Virus record (IMG/VR): IMGVR_UViG_3300010430_006917
Coordinates: 1 to 47,510 of that record
Direction: 5' to 3' (one strand)
DNA length: 47,510 nucleotides
Source: a virus
Below, piece by piece: positions 1,323 to 47,510 of the stretch. The translations under genes and the position numbers were made by a program. Numbering within the stretch: position 1 is the stretch's first letter; each line of letters opens with the position of its first letter. The notes beneath the pieces were generated by a model, which did no database searches, was not told the origin of the DNA, and saw only the letters and a program-made list of their open reading frames with translations.

Positions 1323-1351
1323 AATGTATTGTGGGATTTCTCCCACGTCAA
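1323..1351 (-). promoter_or_regulatory. leftward early promoter with operator in the spacer
   Basis: On the reverse strand: TTGACG (-35, 1346-1351), 17-nt spacer, TACATT (-10, 1323-1328). The spacer is almost entirely the operator at 1331-1346. The predicted start near 1316 faces the leftward operon. The architecture mirrors the rightward promoter at 3774-3802. Confidence 0.6.
1331..1346. promoter_or_regulatory. repressor operator OL1, GTGGGATTTCTCCCAC
   Basis: Inverted repeat GTGGGA-N4-TCCCAC. The same sequence family occurs at 1360-1375, 3726-3741 and 3782-3797, flanking the region that encodes the XRE repressor. It lies inside the leftward promoter spacer, so occupancy should block RNA polymerase. 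Confidence 0.75.
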
Positions 1352-1359
1352 CAAAATTA

Positions 1360-1375
1360 GTGGGATTTATCCCAC
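1360..1375. promoter_or_regulatory. repressor operator OL2, GTGGGATTTATCCCAC
   Basis: Second copy of the inverted repeat, 29 bp centre-to-centre from OL1, a spacing of almost three helical turns that would suit cooperative binding on one DNA face. It lies just upstream of the leftward -35 element. Confidence 0.75.
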
Positions 1376-1657: not shown

Positions 1658-2476
1658 ATGGAGCTGATCGGGCCCCACCTCATCGCCCAGGTCGATGCCA
1701 TCCGACGGCGCGTCGTCCATCTTGGCCGGACACACAAGATCAGTGGTCGCCAAATGGCGGCGCTGGCTCGGGTGAAAGAGAAGCGCGTTCGCAGTTACCT
1801 TGAGGATCCCGGTTGGCGCGAGGACTCTGTCGACCTGCTCGTCGCGATGGAGACAGCAATCGCCCATCTCGGCCTATTGCCACCCTGCGCAGTATCGCCC
1901 GACACCCTGGTTGACAAGCGTCCCGCCCTCCAGATCGCACCGCACCGCAAGGTCCACCTAAACCGCCACGCGGTGCTGCTCAACGAGCAGATTCAGGTCG
2001 TGAACCTCTATCTGCAGGCGGCGGCCAAGGGCGGCATCATCTACGAGCGGGATGTCAAGGTTGATTGGTTACGCAGCCGCGCGCCGGACTGCGCCCTGCA
2101 CGTCTACTCGGTCGACGATCTGGAGAGCCGAATCCTCGTGTCCCACTGGCGGCCGGTGGCCGACTACTTCGGCGGTGCCGACATCACCGGGGCGAACATC
2201 CTGGCCGACTTCCCAGGATCCATGGCCGATTGCATTCGAGAGGACGTGTCGGCGGCGATGCGCACGCCGACACTGCCCCACTTCAGCCTAATTCAGCGCC
2301 GGTTCGGCGACGGCGATCCTGCTCTCCCGAGCCGGAGCTTCCTGCGGCTGATGCAGTACATCGTCGGCAACGGCGATGTCCCGAAGCTGGTGGTCGCGCG
2401 CAGTCTCCAACCGAACGAGACGGCGTCGCAGTATTTCGACGATCTCGGCATAGCTGGACCACGAAAAATACAGTGA
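1658..2476 (+). CDS. putative HTH/PAS-like regulator, 272 aa
   Basis: The frame is open from 1385, but the ATG at 1658 has a clean GGAGG five bases upstream and begins MELIGPHLIAQVDAIRRRVV, so I chose it. Residues about 25-60 (ISGRQMAALARVKEKRVRSY) look like a helix-turn-helix. The C-terminal half (VYSVDDLESRILVSHWRPVA...GGADITGANI...) recalls PAS_5-type sensory domains of alphaproteobacteria; this is a weak, from-memory resemblance. It lies in the immunity region and points away from the OL operators. Its last 189 bp are antisense to the end of the convergent gene at 2288-3127. Confidence 0.55.
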   Translation: MELIGPHLIAQVDAIRRRVVHLGRTHKISGRQMAALARVKEKRVRSYLEDPGWREDSVDLLVAMETAIAHLGLLPPCAVSPDTLVDKRPALQIAPHRKVHLNRHAVLLNEQIQVVNLYLQAAAKGGIIYERDVKVDWLRSRAPDCALHVYSVDDLESRILVSHWRPVADYFGGADITGANILADFPGSMADCIREDVSAAMRTPTLPHFSLIQRRFGDGDPALPSRSFLRLMQYIVGNGDVPKLVVARSLQPNETASQYFDDLGIAGPRKIQ

Positions 2477-3127
2477 CGACGCATCGGGGGCGACCAGGCT
2501 GCCGTCCAGGTTCTTGAACGGCAGCGTCAAGGGCCGGGTCAGCATCTGATGCTGATACCCGTACCACTTCCGCGGCGCGTCCCGGTCGCCGATGTGCTTC
2601 CACGGAATGCCCACCTGATAGTTCACGCGGCGCTCGAGGCACTCAATCATCGGGAAGAGCGACAGCCACCATATCATTCGCCATCCAGGACGATCCGGCG
2701 TGGTCTCGCGGAATGACCGTATGGCGCCGCGCGTGCAGCAGAGCCCTCTCAGGAACGCTAGGCGGTCCCGAATTCCGGTGATGAGCGTTGGCCATCCAAC
2801 GGCCGTGGGGTCGTCGTGATAGAGCCTGCCGGTCTCGAACTCGGCGATGTAGTCGTCGACGATATGAAAGCGCCAGCAGATCGCCCCGATGAACTGATCC
2901 GCCCGCGTCGGATCCGAGGGGCACTCGAAGATCATCGCGCAGCGCGTGTCCCGGCCGTCGATGTTGCGGGCCCTGAACTGCGGGTTGGCCAGGCCGCCCG
3001 TTGCGTTGATCCGCGCGGCCCATTCATGAGAGAGGGCGCCGACTCGCACGTAACAGCCTACGTCCTCCAGTCGGTGCCGCACGGCAATGTTGAGCCGCTC
3101 GACCAATCTTTCGATGTCGTGGACCAT
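2288..3127 (-). CDS. unknown protein co-oriented with the repressor, 279 aa
   Basis: The start at 3127 is supported by an AGGGAGG box six bases upstream; an earlier ATG at 3157 lacks one. No family recognised. The protein is rich in aromatic and Cys residues (for example CRW-like IGAICWRFHIVDDYIAEF, WRMIWWLSLFPMIECLERR) and looks soluble. It begins 52 bp behind the stop of the repressor gene on the same strand with no terminator visible between, so it is probably co-transcribed and expressed in the lysogen. That is the usual position of superinfection-exclusion or defence genes, but the function is inference only. Its C-terminal ~63 codons are antisense to the neighbouring gene, so the true C-terminus could differ. 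Confidence 0.65.
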   Translation of the reverse strand: MVHDIERLVERLNIAVRHRLEDVGCYVRVGALSHEWAARINATGGLANPQFRARNIDGRDTRCAMIFECPSDPTRADQFIGAICWRFHIVDDYIAEFETGRLYHDDPTAVGWPTLITGIRDRLAFLRGLCCTRGAIRSFRETTPDRPGWRMIWWLSLFPMIECLERRVNYQVGIPWKHIGDRDAPRKWYGYQHQMLTRPLTLPFKNLDGSLVAPDASSLYFSWSSYAEIVEILRRRLVRLETARDHQLRDIAVADDVLHQPQEAPARESRIAVAEPALN

Positions 3128-3179
3128 GCGTAGCCTCCCTGCGTTGAGAAGAGGCATTCATGGTACTGCATCTGGTAGA

Positions 3180-3725
3180 TCAGGAAGTGTTAACCATAGC
3201 GGCGTCCGCCGCAGTATGCGTCTCATAGAAAGTCGCGGCCAGAGTGGCAATCATCTTTGGCGACACCTTTAGTTGTGCGCTCTCCGCGTACTCCAGCGCA
3301 TGCGCGATCGCCTTAGTGAGCGCGGGGATATCAACGGGGGCAACTTGACGGCGGAATCTAAGCAGAATCGCACTGGCTTCAAGAGCATTTTGGACAAGTG
3401 GGTTTCCGGATAAGTTTTCGTCTTCTTTGATCGCCTGAAATGATGCCATAGCCGCGTCGATTGCATCAGACTGACTAATAAACGCGGCCGTGGGGTCTTC
3501 GCGCAGTCCATACAATCGATCATCTTCAGCAGCCAAATAGGACACTGAGACGTTGAGGGCCTTCGCGATCGCCTCAAGAGTTTCGAGCTTCGGGCTCCTC
3601 GATCGCCCCACCACGATGTCACGCACCGCGGTTTCGCCAAGCCCCGCCTTCTCGGCGATCTTGCGATAGCTCAACCCCCTCTCGCGCTTTAGGCGGAGAA
3701 GTCGTTCGGATAACCCCTGCTCCAT
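3180..3725 (-). CDS. phage repressor, XRE-family HTH, 181 aa
   Basis: The N-terminus (MEQGLSERLLRLKRERGLSY, HTH about residues 1-60, with 'SYRKIAEKAGLGETAVRDIV' and 'ETLEAIAKALNVSVSYLA') is a typical XRE DNA-binding domain. The C-terminal ~110 residues carry none of the S24/LexA self-cleavage features (no Ala-Gly cleavage context, no Ser/Lys dyad), so induction may not use RecA-stimulated autoproteolysis. I chose the ATG at 3725 because the HTH starts there and the upstream in-frame extension would run through the operators. An operator abuts this start codon (3726-3741), which suggests autoregulation. Divergent from the Cro-like gene. Confidence 0.85.
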   Translation of the reverse strand: MEQGLSERLLRLKRERGLSYRKIAEKAGLGETAVRDIVVGRSRSPKLETLEAIAKALNVSVSYLAAEDDRLYGLREDPTAAFISQSDAIDAAMASFQAIKEDENLSGNPLVQNALEASAILLRFRRQVAPVDIPALTKAIAHALEYAESAQLKVSPKMIATLAATFYETHTAADAAMVNTS

Positions 3726-3741
3726 GTGGGCAGTGTCCCAC
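3726..3741. promoter_or_regulatory. repressor operator abutting the repressor start, GTGGGCAGTGTCCCAC
   Basis: Inverted repeat GTGGG-N6-CCCAC directly upstream of the repressor ATG. It matches the outer arms of the other three sites but has diverged in the inner bases, so it is probably a weaker site used for autoregulation. Confidence 0.6.
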
Positions 3742-3773: not shown

Positions 3774-3802
3774 TTGACATTGTGGGATGAATCCCACATA
3801 CT
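3774..3802 (+). promoter_or_regulatory. rightward early promoter with operator in the spacer
   Basis: TTGACA (-35, 3774-3779), 17-nt spacer, CATACT (-10, 3797-3802). The operator at 3782-3797 fills the spacer. The predicted start falls at about 3809-3810, which is the A of the Cro-like gene's ATG, so the first message would be leaderless. Confidence 0.7.
3782..3797. promoter_or_regulatory. repressor operator OR1, GTGGGATGAATCCCAC
   Basis: The most symmetric copy: with one flanking base each side, TGTGGGAT and ATCCCACA are perfect inverted arms around GA. It lies between -35 and -10 of the rightward promoter, so binding should silence the whole early region. Confidence 0.8.
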
Positions 3803-3809
3803 CGAAATC

Positions 3810-4031
3810 ATGACGACCACCCAAGATCAATTCCTCTCCGAGGTCGATCGGTATCTGACGGCCAAAGGCATGGCTGAAACCACGTTCGGTCGCCGCGCGG
3901 TCAATGACGGGAAGTTCCTAGGCCGCCTGCGCGCCGGCGGTACGGTGACCACAAGGACGATCGATAGGGCGCGGGCTTGGATGACAGCTAACCCGCCGAC
4001 CGCGACCGCCAACAGGAGTGCCGCCGCATGA
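3810..4031 (+). CDS. Cro-like HTH protein, 73 aa
   Basis: A small basic protein (MTTTQDQFLSEVDRYLTAKG...TTFGRRAVNDGKFLGRLRAG...) of the kind found opposite repressors in alphaproteobacterial prophages. The middle fits a helix-turn-helix. First gene of the rightward operon. No Shine-Dalgarno precedes the ATG, and the promoter places the transcript start at or one base before the ATG, so it is likely translated as a leaderless mRNA at the operon 5' end. Its stop overlaps the next start (ATGA). Confidence 0.7.
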   Translation: MTTTQDQFLSEVDRYLTAKGMAETTFGRRAVNDGKFLGRLRAGGTVTTRTIDRARAWMTANPPTATANRSAAA

Positions 4032-5012: not shown

Positions 5013-5555
5013 ATGCGGAAAGCGACCCCCGATTTCCTCCCCCGCCAGTTGCCCGCCTCGGTATACCTGCAGATCAAGGCCGCCAGCCGGCGGCTTGTGG
5101 GGCTCGCCGGCGGCGTCGAATCCGGGGCCATGGCAACGCGGGTGGGCAAGACGGCGCTCGCCGAGTACGGCAGCCCGGATCATCCGTCGTACATGCCGCT
5201 GGACGTGGCGGCCGACCTAGAGGCGGACACCGGCCGGCCCGTGGTGAGCGATCTGCTGCGCCGGCTCGCCGCCGAGAATGCGCCGCCTGTTCCGGTCCGA
5301 CCGATGACCGCGGCGGAGGCGCTGCGGGCGGCATCCGATAGCCTGACCGCGGCGGCCGGGTTCGCCAGCTCCCTCGGCGAGGCGGCCGATGACGGCGTGA
5401 TCACCGACGGCGAGCTGGCGGGGCTGATCCGCGAAGCCGACCGCCTGCGCCGCAAGATCGACGACATCCACGCGGGCCTGGTGAACGCTCACGCCGCCAG
5501 CCGCGAAGAACGGCACCGGGCCGAGGCCGGGGAGCCGAAGGAGGCCAGCCCGTGA
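5013..5555 (+). CDS. CII-like phage regulatory protein, 180 aa
   Basis: Residues about 15-80 (VYLQIKAASRRLVGLAGGVE, then TRVGKTALAEYG...MPLDVAADLEADTGRPVV) match the Phage_CII_2-type pattern of alphaproteobacterial prophages: an HTH followed by 'MPLDVxxxLExxxGxPxV'. The C-terminus holds a predicted coiled coil (about 128-165, GELAGLIREADRLRRKIDD). By family this is a transcription regulator of the lysis/lysogeny switch. It is the last gene before a 140-bp gap. Confidence 0.7.
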   Translation: MRKATPDFLPRQLPASVYLQIKAASRRLVGLAGGVESGAMATRVGKTALAEYGSPDHPSYMPLDVAADLEADTGRPVVSDLLRRLAAENAPPVPVRPMTAAEALRAASDSLTAAAGFASSLGEAADDGVITDGELAGLIREADRLRRKIDDIHAGLVNAHAASREERHRAEAGEPKEASP

Positions 5556-6082: not shown

Positions 6083-6182
6083 TCTTCCCCGGAATGAGCA
6101 TACGGCCCCTTACCGGCAGGTGGGGCCTTCGGCGGTGCGGGCATTCCCCGCGCTCCTGATGTGGAGCCTCCCTTGTTCAACT

Positions 6183-6206
6183 GCGGGCCGGTCTCGGCCG
6201 GCCCGC
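6183..6206 (+). other. 9-bp hairpin upstream of the GapR-like gene
   Basis: GCGGGCCGG (6183-6191) pairs with CCGGCCCGC (6198-6206), followed by CCTTTCCCC. It lies 24 bp before the GapR-like start. It could terminate leakily or define the 5' end of the replication operon's message. Confidence 0.4.
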
Positions 6207-6229
6207 CCTTTCCCCGAAAGGAGGGGCCA

Positions 6230-6475
6230 ATGGTCGACGTCGGTGGAATCGCAGGCGACCAGCTCCGCAGCTACATCGAGCGGATCGAGCGCCTGGAGGA
6301 AGAGAAGGCGGCGCTGGCTGCCGACATCCGGGACGTGTTCGCCGAGGCCAAGGGCAACGGCTTCGACGTCAAGGTGATGCGCCAGGTCATCAAGCTCCGG
6401 AAGCTCGACAAGGACGACCGGGACGAGGCCGAGACCGTCCTGGACCTCTACAAGCGCGCTCTCGGGATGGAGTGA
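6230..6475 (+). CDS. gapR-like: GapR-like nucleoid protein (DUF2312), 81 aa
   Basis: After the start at 6230 (strong AAAGGAGGGG box) the product reads MVDVGGIAGDQLRSYIERIE, then EEEKAALAADIRDVFAEAKG and GFDVKVMRQVIKLRKLDKDD. This is the almost complete DUF2312/GapR signature at the usual length of about 80-90 residues. In Caulobacter, GapR forms a clamp on overtwisted DNA ahead of replication forks and RNA polymerase and stimulates topoisomerases. Here it heads the replication operon, so a role in relieving supercoils on phage DNA, or in competing with the host protein, is a reasonable inference. Confidence 0.88.
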   Translation: MVDVGGIAGDQLRSYIERIERLEEEKAALAADIRDVFAEAKGNGFDVKVMRQVIKLRKLDKDDRDEAETVLDLYKRALGME

Positions 6476-6673: not shown

Positions 6674-7878
6674 CCATGATCCTGGACGCCGGCGAGCTGG
6701 CCGGCGCGCTGCACGCGGGCGCCCGTCTCGACCTGGTGGTGGAGCGCCGGCCGGTGCGGCTGGTCGCCGAGGAGAACGCGGTGCGGGTCGGCATGGCCGA
6801 CCTGACGCAAGGGTTCTCCGTCCTGCTGCGGTCGCCGAAGGCCGAAGGCGAGATCGTCATCGACCACCGCTACCTGGTCGCGGCCCTGAAGGGCATGAAG
6901 GCCGGCGCGCAGGTGACGATCGAGCCGGCGAAGGCGCAGGCGAAGATCTCGGTGGAGACCGCGGCGGGCCCGAAGACCTCGCGCGTCCCGATGCTCGACC
7001 CTTCGACGGTTCACACCCCGCCGACCGCGGACGCCGCGCCGATCATCGTCGGCATGAAGGAGCTTAAGCGGCTGCTGGCCGCGGTCAGGTGCGCGCCGCC
7101 GCCGTCCGACACCCGGTACGACATGTGCGGCGTCCACCTGGTTGCGCGTCAGGTCGACAAGGGCGGCCCGCATCGGCTGGTTGCCGAAGCGACGGACAGC
7201 CAGGTCGGGTCGATCACGGCGTCGGAGGTGATCGCTCCCGACGACATGCAGGACGCCATCGTCGCGCACCACACCATCGCCATGGTCGGCGCGCTGCCGA
7301 TCGGCGACGACGAGAGCGTCGGCCTCGCCATCACGGAAACGCACTGGATCCTGACGACGGAGACGATCCGTGCGCAGGGCCAGCACATCGACGGTCGGTT
7401 CCCGGATCTCCGGCGCGTGATTCCGACCGAGTTCGAAGCGACGGCACTGCTGGATACCGCCGTGCTGGACGACGCGCTGGCCGCGGCGATGCCGCTGACG
7501 TCGGACGACAAGAAGAACCGCGGCGTCTTCCTCGGGATCCGGAACGGCGTGCTGACGGTGGTCGGCGGCGCCGGCGGCGGTGGAGCCCTGAACGCCGACG
7601 CGCATGCCCGCGTGGACGTCGACTGCGCCACCGGAGGGCAGGATGCCTGGGTCTGGCTGAACGGCGAGAATCTCGGCCGCGTGCTCTCGGTGCACCGCTC
7701 CGAGACGGTGCGCCTCCGCAAGGCGCCCGCCGGGAACATCGTCCTGATCGACGGTGTCAACTCGCTCGAGGACGATCCGGAGGCGCCGCCGCCGGCCCAG
7801 CTCGGGATCCTGGTGGGCCTGCATGCGAACGTCTGGGCGGCCTGGGCCGCCGAGGCGCCGGCGGAGGCCGCGGCATGA
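6670..7878 (+). CDS. dnaN-like: DNA polymerase III beta-like sliding clamp 1, 402 aa
   Basis: Length and internal pattern fit a three-domain beta clamp. Diagnostic stretches are DTRYDMCGVHLVA (domain 2, the 'R...NGV' position), HRLVAEATDSQVG, and DGRFPDLRRVIPTEFEA, the clamp signature DGxFPDxxRVIP. The clamp encircles DNA and tethers polymerase and other proteins. The C-terminal ~20 residues are Ala/Glu-rich (EAPAEAAA), and it is about 30 residues longer than typical bacterial DnaN. A second, clearly different clamp is encoded at 14735. It overlaps both neighbours by ATGA. Confidence 0.8.
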   Translation: MTMILDAGELAGALHAGARLDLVVERRPVRLVAEENAVRVGMADLTQGFSVLLRSPKAEGEIVIDHRYLVAALKGMKAGAQVTIEPAKAQAKISVETAAGPKTSRVPMLDPSTVHTPPTADAAPIIVGMKELKRLLAAVRCAPPPSDTRYDMCGVHLVARQVDKGGPHRLVAEATDSQVGSITASEVIAPDDMQDAIVAHHTIAMVGALPIGDDESVGLAITETHWILTTETIRAQGQHIDGRFPDLRRVIPTEFEATALLDTAVLDDALAAAMPLTSDDKKNRGVFLGIRNGVLTVVGGAGGGGALNADAHARVDVDCATGGQDAWVWLNGENLGRVLSVHRSETVRLRKAPAGNIVLIDGVNSLEDDPEAPPPAQLGILVGLHANVWAAWAAEAPAEAAA

Positions 7879-46510: not shown

Positions 46511-46780
46511 ATGAAGCGCCGACGACGCAGCATCTGGCTCGATGGGCACGACACCCTGGCCAAGATCAAGGCCAGGGGATCGTCGCTCAGGGTCATCTGC
46601 GACCGATGTCGCGGCGCGTGGAATGTCGATGTCGACGACCTGATCCGGCGCTATGGGCCGAACTTCAATTTGGTCGGTCGCCGCGGGCGATGCCGGACGC
46701 CAGGCTGTGCCGGTCGGCCGTCATTCCAGGTCTCGGCAGGCCCCGGAACGCCATTTCGGCCGCTGTTGCGGCCTCCATGA
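46511..46780 (+). CDS. zinc-ribbon protein, 89 aa
   Basis: Starts MKRRRRSIWLDGHDTLAKIK and has a C-x2-C...C-x4-C arrangement (VICDRCRGAWNV...GRCRTPGCAGRP), with Arg/Lys-rich N-terminus. Probably nucleic-acid binding. It lies after the late terminator, so it belongs to a different transcript. The start is weakly defined; the ATG at 46511 lacks a strong Shine-Dalgarno. Confidence 0.55.
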   Translation: MKRRRRSIWLDGHDTLAKIKARGSSLRVICDRCRGAWNVDVDDLIRRYGPNFNLVGRRGRCRTPGCAGRPSFQVSAGPGTPFRPLLRPP

Positions 46781-46796
46781 CACGGGAGGGCAGGAC

Positions 46797-47510
46797 ATGC
46801 CCCTTGCGCACCAAGTCGGCACTCCTGGCGAGTTCGCCGAGTGGCTCGACGATATCGAGGATCAGGCGAAGCGCCGGTTCAACTGGACAATCGGCCTGTC
46901 TGGCGATCGTCACCGTCTGGCTTGGCTGCATCGCGGCCGGCCGCCGTTCCCGGGCTGGTACCCGCACGACGAGGGTGGCGCCCCGGAGGCGTTCTGGATC
47001 GACTTCAAGGATCGGGCGGGTAGGACCCGAGCCACGGCCGGCGCGCTGCGCTACCTGCTCGGTCCGGCGAACCTGGCCAACTGGATCAACGCCGGCGGCA
47101 TGAACGCCGATGGACACCGGATCACGATCGAGGGCGAGGCAGCCGCGGAGGCTTCGGCGATCCGCCTCGAGGTCGGTTTCAGCGGCAATCTGTGGGTGCC
47201 CGACGACGCCGACCGGGCGACGGACCAGAGCCGTTGGCTGACCGAGATCGTCCCGCTCCTCAACAAGGTGATCGCGGCGTCCCTTTGGCCGTCGGTCGAA
47301 TCGTTCATCACCTTCGTGCGGGACATCCAGGTCAACCACCTGGCCCCGCGGTATCGACTGCCGATCCTGGTGCCCGGCGTCAAATGGTGGCAACGGTTCG
47401 ACGGGACCACGTCGCTGCACCTGGGTGTTCAGACGTTGGACGAGCTGCAGCAGTCCATTCGCGATCAGGGTAGCCGATCGAAACGACCTCGAGCCCGATC
47501 GGCAGCATGA
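46797..47510 (+). CDS. hypothetical protein, 237 aa
   Basis: GGGAGG upstream of the ATG at 46797. The protein contains EFAEWLDDIEDQAKRRFNWT, LRYLLGPANLANWINAGGMN and IVPLLNKVIAASLWPSVESF; its stop ends exactly at the window edge. I do not recognise a family. It follows the zinc-ribbon gene at 16 bp, and both sit beyond the terminator, typical of moron-type accessory genes. Confidence 0.6.
   Translation: MPLAHQVGTPGEFAEWLDDIEDQAKRRFNWTIGLSGDRHRLAWLHRGRPPFPGWYPHDEGGAPEAFWIDFKDRAGRTRATAGALRYLLGPANLANWINAGGMNADGHRITIEGEAAAEASAIRLEVGFSGNLWVPDDADRATDQSRWLTEIVPLLNKVIAASLWPSVESFITFVRDIQVNHLAPRYRLPILVPGVKWWQRFDGTTSLHLGVQTLDELQQSIRDQGSRSKRPRARSAA

Follow-up and report, generated by a model that had tools for sequence, protein, structure and literature searches.

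A GNAT-like gene and a convergent HTH-PAS gene within the predicted immunity region of an alphaproteobacterial temperate phage

Convergent pairs of signal-synthase and receptor genes are known from the LuxI/LuxR systems, where the luxR and luxI genes can face one another and overlap by 2–79 bp (PMC3386692). In alphaproteobacterial prophages, operons of the order xre-luxR-luxI steer lysogeny (PMC13345283). PAS domains, too, serve in regulation: MopJ, a protein of the PAS_5 family, acts as an intracellular regulator (PMC4432633). And in lambda, the place behind the repressor gene, between OL and OR, is taken by rexAB. The locus described here touches on all four—in layout, in position, or in domain content.

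The window, by which we mean the whole stretch of DNA analysed, comes from a viral record, is 47,510 bases long and has a lambda-type terminase, a portal and genes for a tail. Among GTDB contigs, the closest terminases are those of Azospirillum and Microvirga, at about 60% identity. The left end (1–120) is cut within a short tandem repeat inside a minus-strand reading frame; the record may for this reason lack an integrase that lay beyond it. A DUF2312 gene, common to many alphaproteobacterial phages, occupies 6161–6475; by eye, it resembles a gene in the phage-type region of locus L081, to which we return below. The features of interest are:

1323..1351, minus strand: PL-like promoter TTGACG-17-TACATT, predicted, sigma-70-like, with operator 1331–1346 in its spacer
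1331..1346, unstranded: operator GTGGGATTTCTCCCAC, OL-like site 1, exact palindrome
1360..1375, unstranded: operator GTGGGATTTATCCCAC, OL-like site 2, exact palindrome
1658..2476, plus strand: HTH-PAS partner, 272 aa, N-terminal XRE-type HTH and C-terminal PAS_5-like domain
2288..3127, minus strand: GNAT-like gene, 279 aa, from its translation and family-model matches
3134..3140, minus strand: Shine-Dalgarno AGGGAGG of the GNAT-like gene, from the sequence
3180..3725, minus strand: XRE (CI-like) repressor, Pfam HTH_3 at 1e-11 and PHROG repressor families
3726..3741, unstranded: operator GTGGGCAGTGTCCCAC, OR-like, one mismatch, abutting the repressor start codon
3774..3802, plus strand: PR-like promoter TTGACA-17-CATACT, predicted, sigma-70-like
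3782..3797, unstranded: operator GTGGGATGAATCCCAC, OR-like, exact palindrome, between -35 and -10 of the rightward promoter
3810..4031, plus strand: first rightward gene, in the cro position, phrog_7669
5013..5555, plus strand: CII-like activator, phrog_101
46653..47510, plus strand: second, unpaired GNAT-like family member, at the right end of the contig

The palindrome GTGGGANNNNTCCCAC is present exactly at 1331, 1360 and 3782, and with one mismatch at 3726. That makes four sites where 0.19 are expected, a number reached in none of 100 shuffles. Two sigma-70-like promoters were found in the first 6.6 kb, and each has an operator in its spacer. The repressor, the GNAT-like gene and the HTH-PAS gene all lie between the two arrays of this one palindrome. 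Because operators stand on both sides, we take this to be the immunity region; it has a lambda-like plan, with the repressor between two predicted operator arrays and predicted promoters pointing outward. The repressor and the GNAT-like gene lie on one strand with a gap of 52 bp, and the GNAT-like gene is, judged by this arrangement, the second gene of a lysogenic operon that the repressor heads.

The original prediction had described a 279-aa ORF 52 bp behind a repressor on the same strand, and the translation, the HTH_3 match, the Shine-Dalgarno sequence and the relatives described below all confirm it. Its placing of an unrecognised protein in the repressor (lysogenic) operon, where lambda has rexAB, is supported as well, with operators on both sides; the antisense plus-strand gene and the palindromes that flank the region had been missed. 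The sequence AGGGAGG lies six bases upstream of ATG 3127. An alternative start at ATG 3157 would lengthen the protein to 289 aa and has no Shine-Dalgarno, and since AGGGAGG precedes only ATG 3127, this is the start we prefer. Codon-position GC is gene-like over most of the length (GC3 0.80, GC2 0.47), and the last 63 codons overlap the plus-strand gene (1658–2476) in antisense.

The protein matches nothing in the Pfam, PHROG, NCBIfam, PADLOC or PDB-sequence families. Searched as a single sequence, it finds no relatives in phage, plasmid, IMG/VR or GTDB contigs, nor in the order of the Azospirillum genome, and further scans of IMG/VR with family alignments found none either. AlphaFold2, run without an alignment, gave a model unusable for fold comparison (pLDDT 40). 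Relatives surfaced only when the search was widened to the class: tblastn over 385 alphaproteobacterial genomes found four, in three genomes. A profile of the gene and these four relatives, run against 36 genomes of one family, matched 50 times in 17 of them, with up to six copies in a genome. The subfamily profile has members in 24 of the 385 genomes of class Alphaproteobacteria, and a single profile ties the gene to about 80 alphaproteobacterial proteins. These reside on chromosomes, in the rep/par regions of plasmids and in the immunity regions of prophages. A 51-member model built without the window sequences scores 2288–3127 at E 2e-30, so this is not a chance ORF, and it also picks out 46653–47510, unexpectedly, at E 7e-12. 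When the entire clade of 2288–3127 is withheld, the scores are E 5e-9 and E 1.7e-13, respectively.

Several family members carry GNAT motif A, tested as the pattern R/Q-x-x-G-x-G/A and exemplified by GGLWVHPDWRGYGLAGTLPRL in locus L015. The wider family, set against 21 true GNAT proteins, aligns exactly at this motif (hhalign E 2e-4, probability 44%; negative controls, E 0.07–0.6), and the L015 protein matches Pfam Acetyltransf_1 at E 0.019, below the cut-off. In the HTH-PAS clade, the window gene included, the acyl-CoA loop of motif A has degenerated and most of it is lost; compared with GNAT proteins by hhalign, this clade alone gives no signal (E 0.23). The GNAT fold of 2288–3127 is thus assigned by homology through the family, and the protein itself may be non-catalytic, given the degenerate motif and the missing clade-only signal. 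By sequence comparison it belongs to a large family of GNAT-like (acyltransferase-fold) proteins, hitherto undescribed, in which it is a divergent member. In the tree it falls, on a long end branch of its own, within a clade of 11 (support 100/99); of the other ten members, six are paired with HTH-PAS genes and four are unpaired.

Some family members deserve mention in their own right. The closest relative of the window gene by identity, at 29%, is that of L025; a strongly conserved, unpaired chromosomal copy with 77–95% identity to L025 is found in five genomes (L018, L023–L026), and at L018 it adjoins an SDR-family gene and ilvD. On a plasmid-like contig (L052; G481:C17, 2059–13790), 12 kb contain three family members. 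Two of these are almost identical along most of the sequence, and only one of the three has an HTH-PAS partner. The second member in the window, 46653–47510, is very divergent and groups in the tree with unpaired chromosomal members. It adjoins the small genes that follow the tail region, and its 3' neighbour lies beyond the contig end. Another viral record, L074 (IMGVR_UViG_3300010392_005354), ends where the window ends (47510), at the same stop codon, with a copy of this protein that is 100% identical; the shared end is perhaps a prophage end or an assembly break.

The partner gene most probably begins at ATG 1658, which is preceded by GGAGG. Its reading frame is open from 1385, but because relatives start near the HTH, 1385–1657 is probably not part of the protein. 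A subfamily model built without the window recognises the partner at E 1e-23, and its HTH resembles those of phage XRE repressors (hhalign E 1e-5, probability 82%). At L016 and L116 the partner scores above the Pfam cut-off for PAS_5 (PF07310); the window partner falls below it, yet is homologous to both (E 8.5e-11). It runs convergently to the GNAT-like gene and overlaps it in antisense at 2288–2476, the 189 bp of shared 3' ends giving the pair the arrangement known from luxI and luxR. A neighbouring PAS-like gene was found at 47 distinct loci: convergent at 43, co-directional at three and divergent at one. The 3' ends overlap in 34 of the 43 convergent pairs, by 20–321 nt (median 120), and the overlap is a multiple of three in 27 of these 34. 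GC-rich DNA may itself keep that register open, and the length of an overlap therefore says little when taken alone; the strong part of the evidence for pairing is the convergent orientation. Around 30 copies have no visible partner, and many partners consist of PAS only, without an HTH. With so many relatives unpaired and so many partners PAS-only, a transcriptional receptor is not general in the family.

The complete module recurs at two loci in other genomes, L081 and L082, where an XRE gene is followed, after 37 or 47 bp, by a GNAT-like gene, with an HTH-PAS gene that converges on it and overlaps it. Repressor families mark the surroundings of both as phage-type; L082 also has an integrase and a replication protein nearby, and L081 has phage-family genes of unknown function. 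Operator-like palindromes flank the module at both loci, and their sequences differ from that of the window: TTCAANNNNNTTGAA at 7021, 7079 (one mismatch), 9191 and 9222 in L081 (0.21 expected), and TTCAGNNNNNCTGAA at 6736, 8854 and 8885 in L082 (0.38 expected). The left pair of operators is spaced 29 bp start-to-start in the window and 31 bp in both L081 and L082, and the right pair 56 bp in the window and 58 bp in L081. In each of the three, the HTH-PAS gene begins about 275–295 bp inward of the left array. Related pairs of the same subfamily occur on plasmid-like contigs, where they adjoin RepA, ParA and ParB, and one such contig also has VirB4- and VirB11-like genes.

The likeness to luxI/luxR does not extend to sequence. 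The GNAT-like gene has no Pfam match to the LuxI family (Autoind_synth, PF00765), and a PF00765 search of G189, G481, G480, G474, G490 and G488, with several family members each, returned nothing. Profile against profile, the comparison with LuxI found nothing (hhalign E 0.09–0.2), with only three LuxI sequences in it. Neither the window partner nor its relatives match the LuxR domains Autoind_bind (PF03472) and GerE (PF00196). We therefore rejected membership of LuxI, there being neither a PF00765 match nor a profile–profile signal, and membership of LuxR for the HTH-PAS partner, which is without Autoind_bind and GerE. Family members on two rhizobial plasmids (L075, L078) lie 1–2 kb upstream of an intact LuxR-type gene that has both Autoind_bind and GerE; we dropped this proximity as evidence, since transposase-like ORFs intervene at one of the loci and nothing ties the genes together.

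What might such a pair do? Tentatively, and with rather less than even confidence, we favour the idea that the two genes form a lysogeny-linked signalling module, like a synthase and its receptor, that biases the choice between lysis and lysogeny. The GNAT-like gene and the convergent, 3'-overlapping gene for an XRE-HTH plus PAS regulator would act as one unit. The GNAT-fold protein would make or modify a small acyl-derived product in the lysogen, the PAS domain of the HTH protein would bind this product or a related cue, and the HTH-PAS protein would then adjust transcription around the operators, such that the abundance of lysogens sways the decision. The antisense overlap might allow each gene to damp the other, and the pair as a whole would work as luxI and luxR do, with proteins from different families. 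The same anatomy could also house an intracellular switch that does not involve a diffusible signal. The repressor, the HTH-PAS protein or a host factor would then be what the GNAT-like protein binds or modifies, and the PAS domain would respond to a cue from the host such as redox state or a metabolite. The degenerate motif A of this clade would suit such a switch, and PAS_5 proteins such as MopJ are intracellular regulators (PMC4432633). We consider it unlikely, all the same: it does not specifically predict that an enzyme-like gene and a regulator should converge in phages, plasmids and chromosomes alike.

GNAT toxins are known, and the pair could instead be an addiction system that keeps the prophage or plasmid in place, in which the GNAT-like protein would be the toxin, countered by the HTH-PAS gene or by that gene's antisense RNA. 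Pairs do adjoin plasmid rep/par genes or sit in a repressor operon, and overlap in antisense would offer a way to silence a toxin. Type II GNAT toxin–antitoxin genes share one operon, however, whereas here the partners converge; the proteins are about 230–300 aa; and unpaired chromosomal copies are common. All this makes addiction distinctly improbable. Lower still do we rate the reading of the gene as one that the lysogen expresses for defence or Rex-like exclusion, the role for which it had originally been put forward as a candidate. Its place in the lysogenic operon, in the rex position between operators, is what speaks for that role, and position is the one pointer to exclusion that we found. 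PADLOC, which covers known anti-phage defence families, has no match for the gene, no defence genes were recognised among the neighbours examined, and chromosomal copies adjoin housekeeping-type genes such as secF and ilvD (by eye, from sequence). The relatives, moreover, form a GNAT-like family whose partners are PAS regulators, and so the proposal of a defence or exclusion gene is not supported.

None of the family libraries searched has a name for the GNAT–PAS pair, and no paper on it turned up in the literature that was searched. The pair explains a gene that one would otherwise have to list among orphan candidates for defence. It is doubtful, but worth stating, that the pair represents an undescribed family of signal synthases and receptors that has no sequence kinship with LuxI/LuxR, is spread widely across Alphaproteobacteria, and has been taken up by temperate phages and plasmids as a sensor for their control regions. 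If true, phages and plasmids would count lysogens or plasmid bearers by a further chemistry, unrelated to LuxI/LuxR and arbitrium, and the pair, once proven to signal, would be a new signal system. If the idea of a signal fails, the conserved convergent pair is still a new regulatory unit that can be tested.

Set beside the known systems, the window pair shares with convergent LuxI/LuxR genes (the R2 topology; PMC3386692) a putative acyltransferase-type fold, a convergent sensor/HTH regulator and a 3' overlap. It differs in having a PAS_5-like domain in place of Autoind_bind and an N-terminal XRE-type HTH in place of a C-terminal GerE; GNAT–PAS overlaps are longer, and homology to LuxI is undetectable. 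The Roseobacter prophages with xre-luxR-luxI (PMC13345283) are, like the window, alphaproteobacterial temperate phages, and in both an XRE gene heads a lysogenic operon that holds a synthase-like gene. In the window, by contrast, the regulator is convergent and lies outside the operon, and the protein families are different. The Roseobacter phages are reported to be without cI/cro (PMC13345283), whereas the window has a repressor, two-sided operators and a CII-like gene. Like rexAB of lambda, the GNAT-like gene sits behind the repressor, between OL and OR; it has no sequence match to RexA or RexB in PHROG or Pfam, and in place of two genes there is a single one with a convergent regulator. MopJ, finally, belongs to the domain family that the partners resemble, PAS_5 (PF07310), and the partners at many loci are single-domain proteins; the partner in the window has an HTH in addition, and is tied to a GNAT-like gene.
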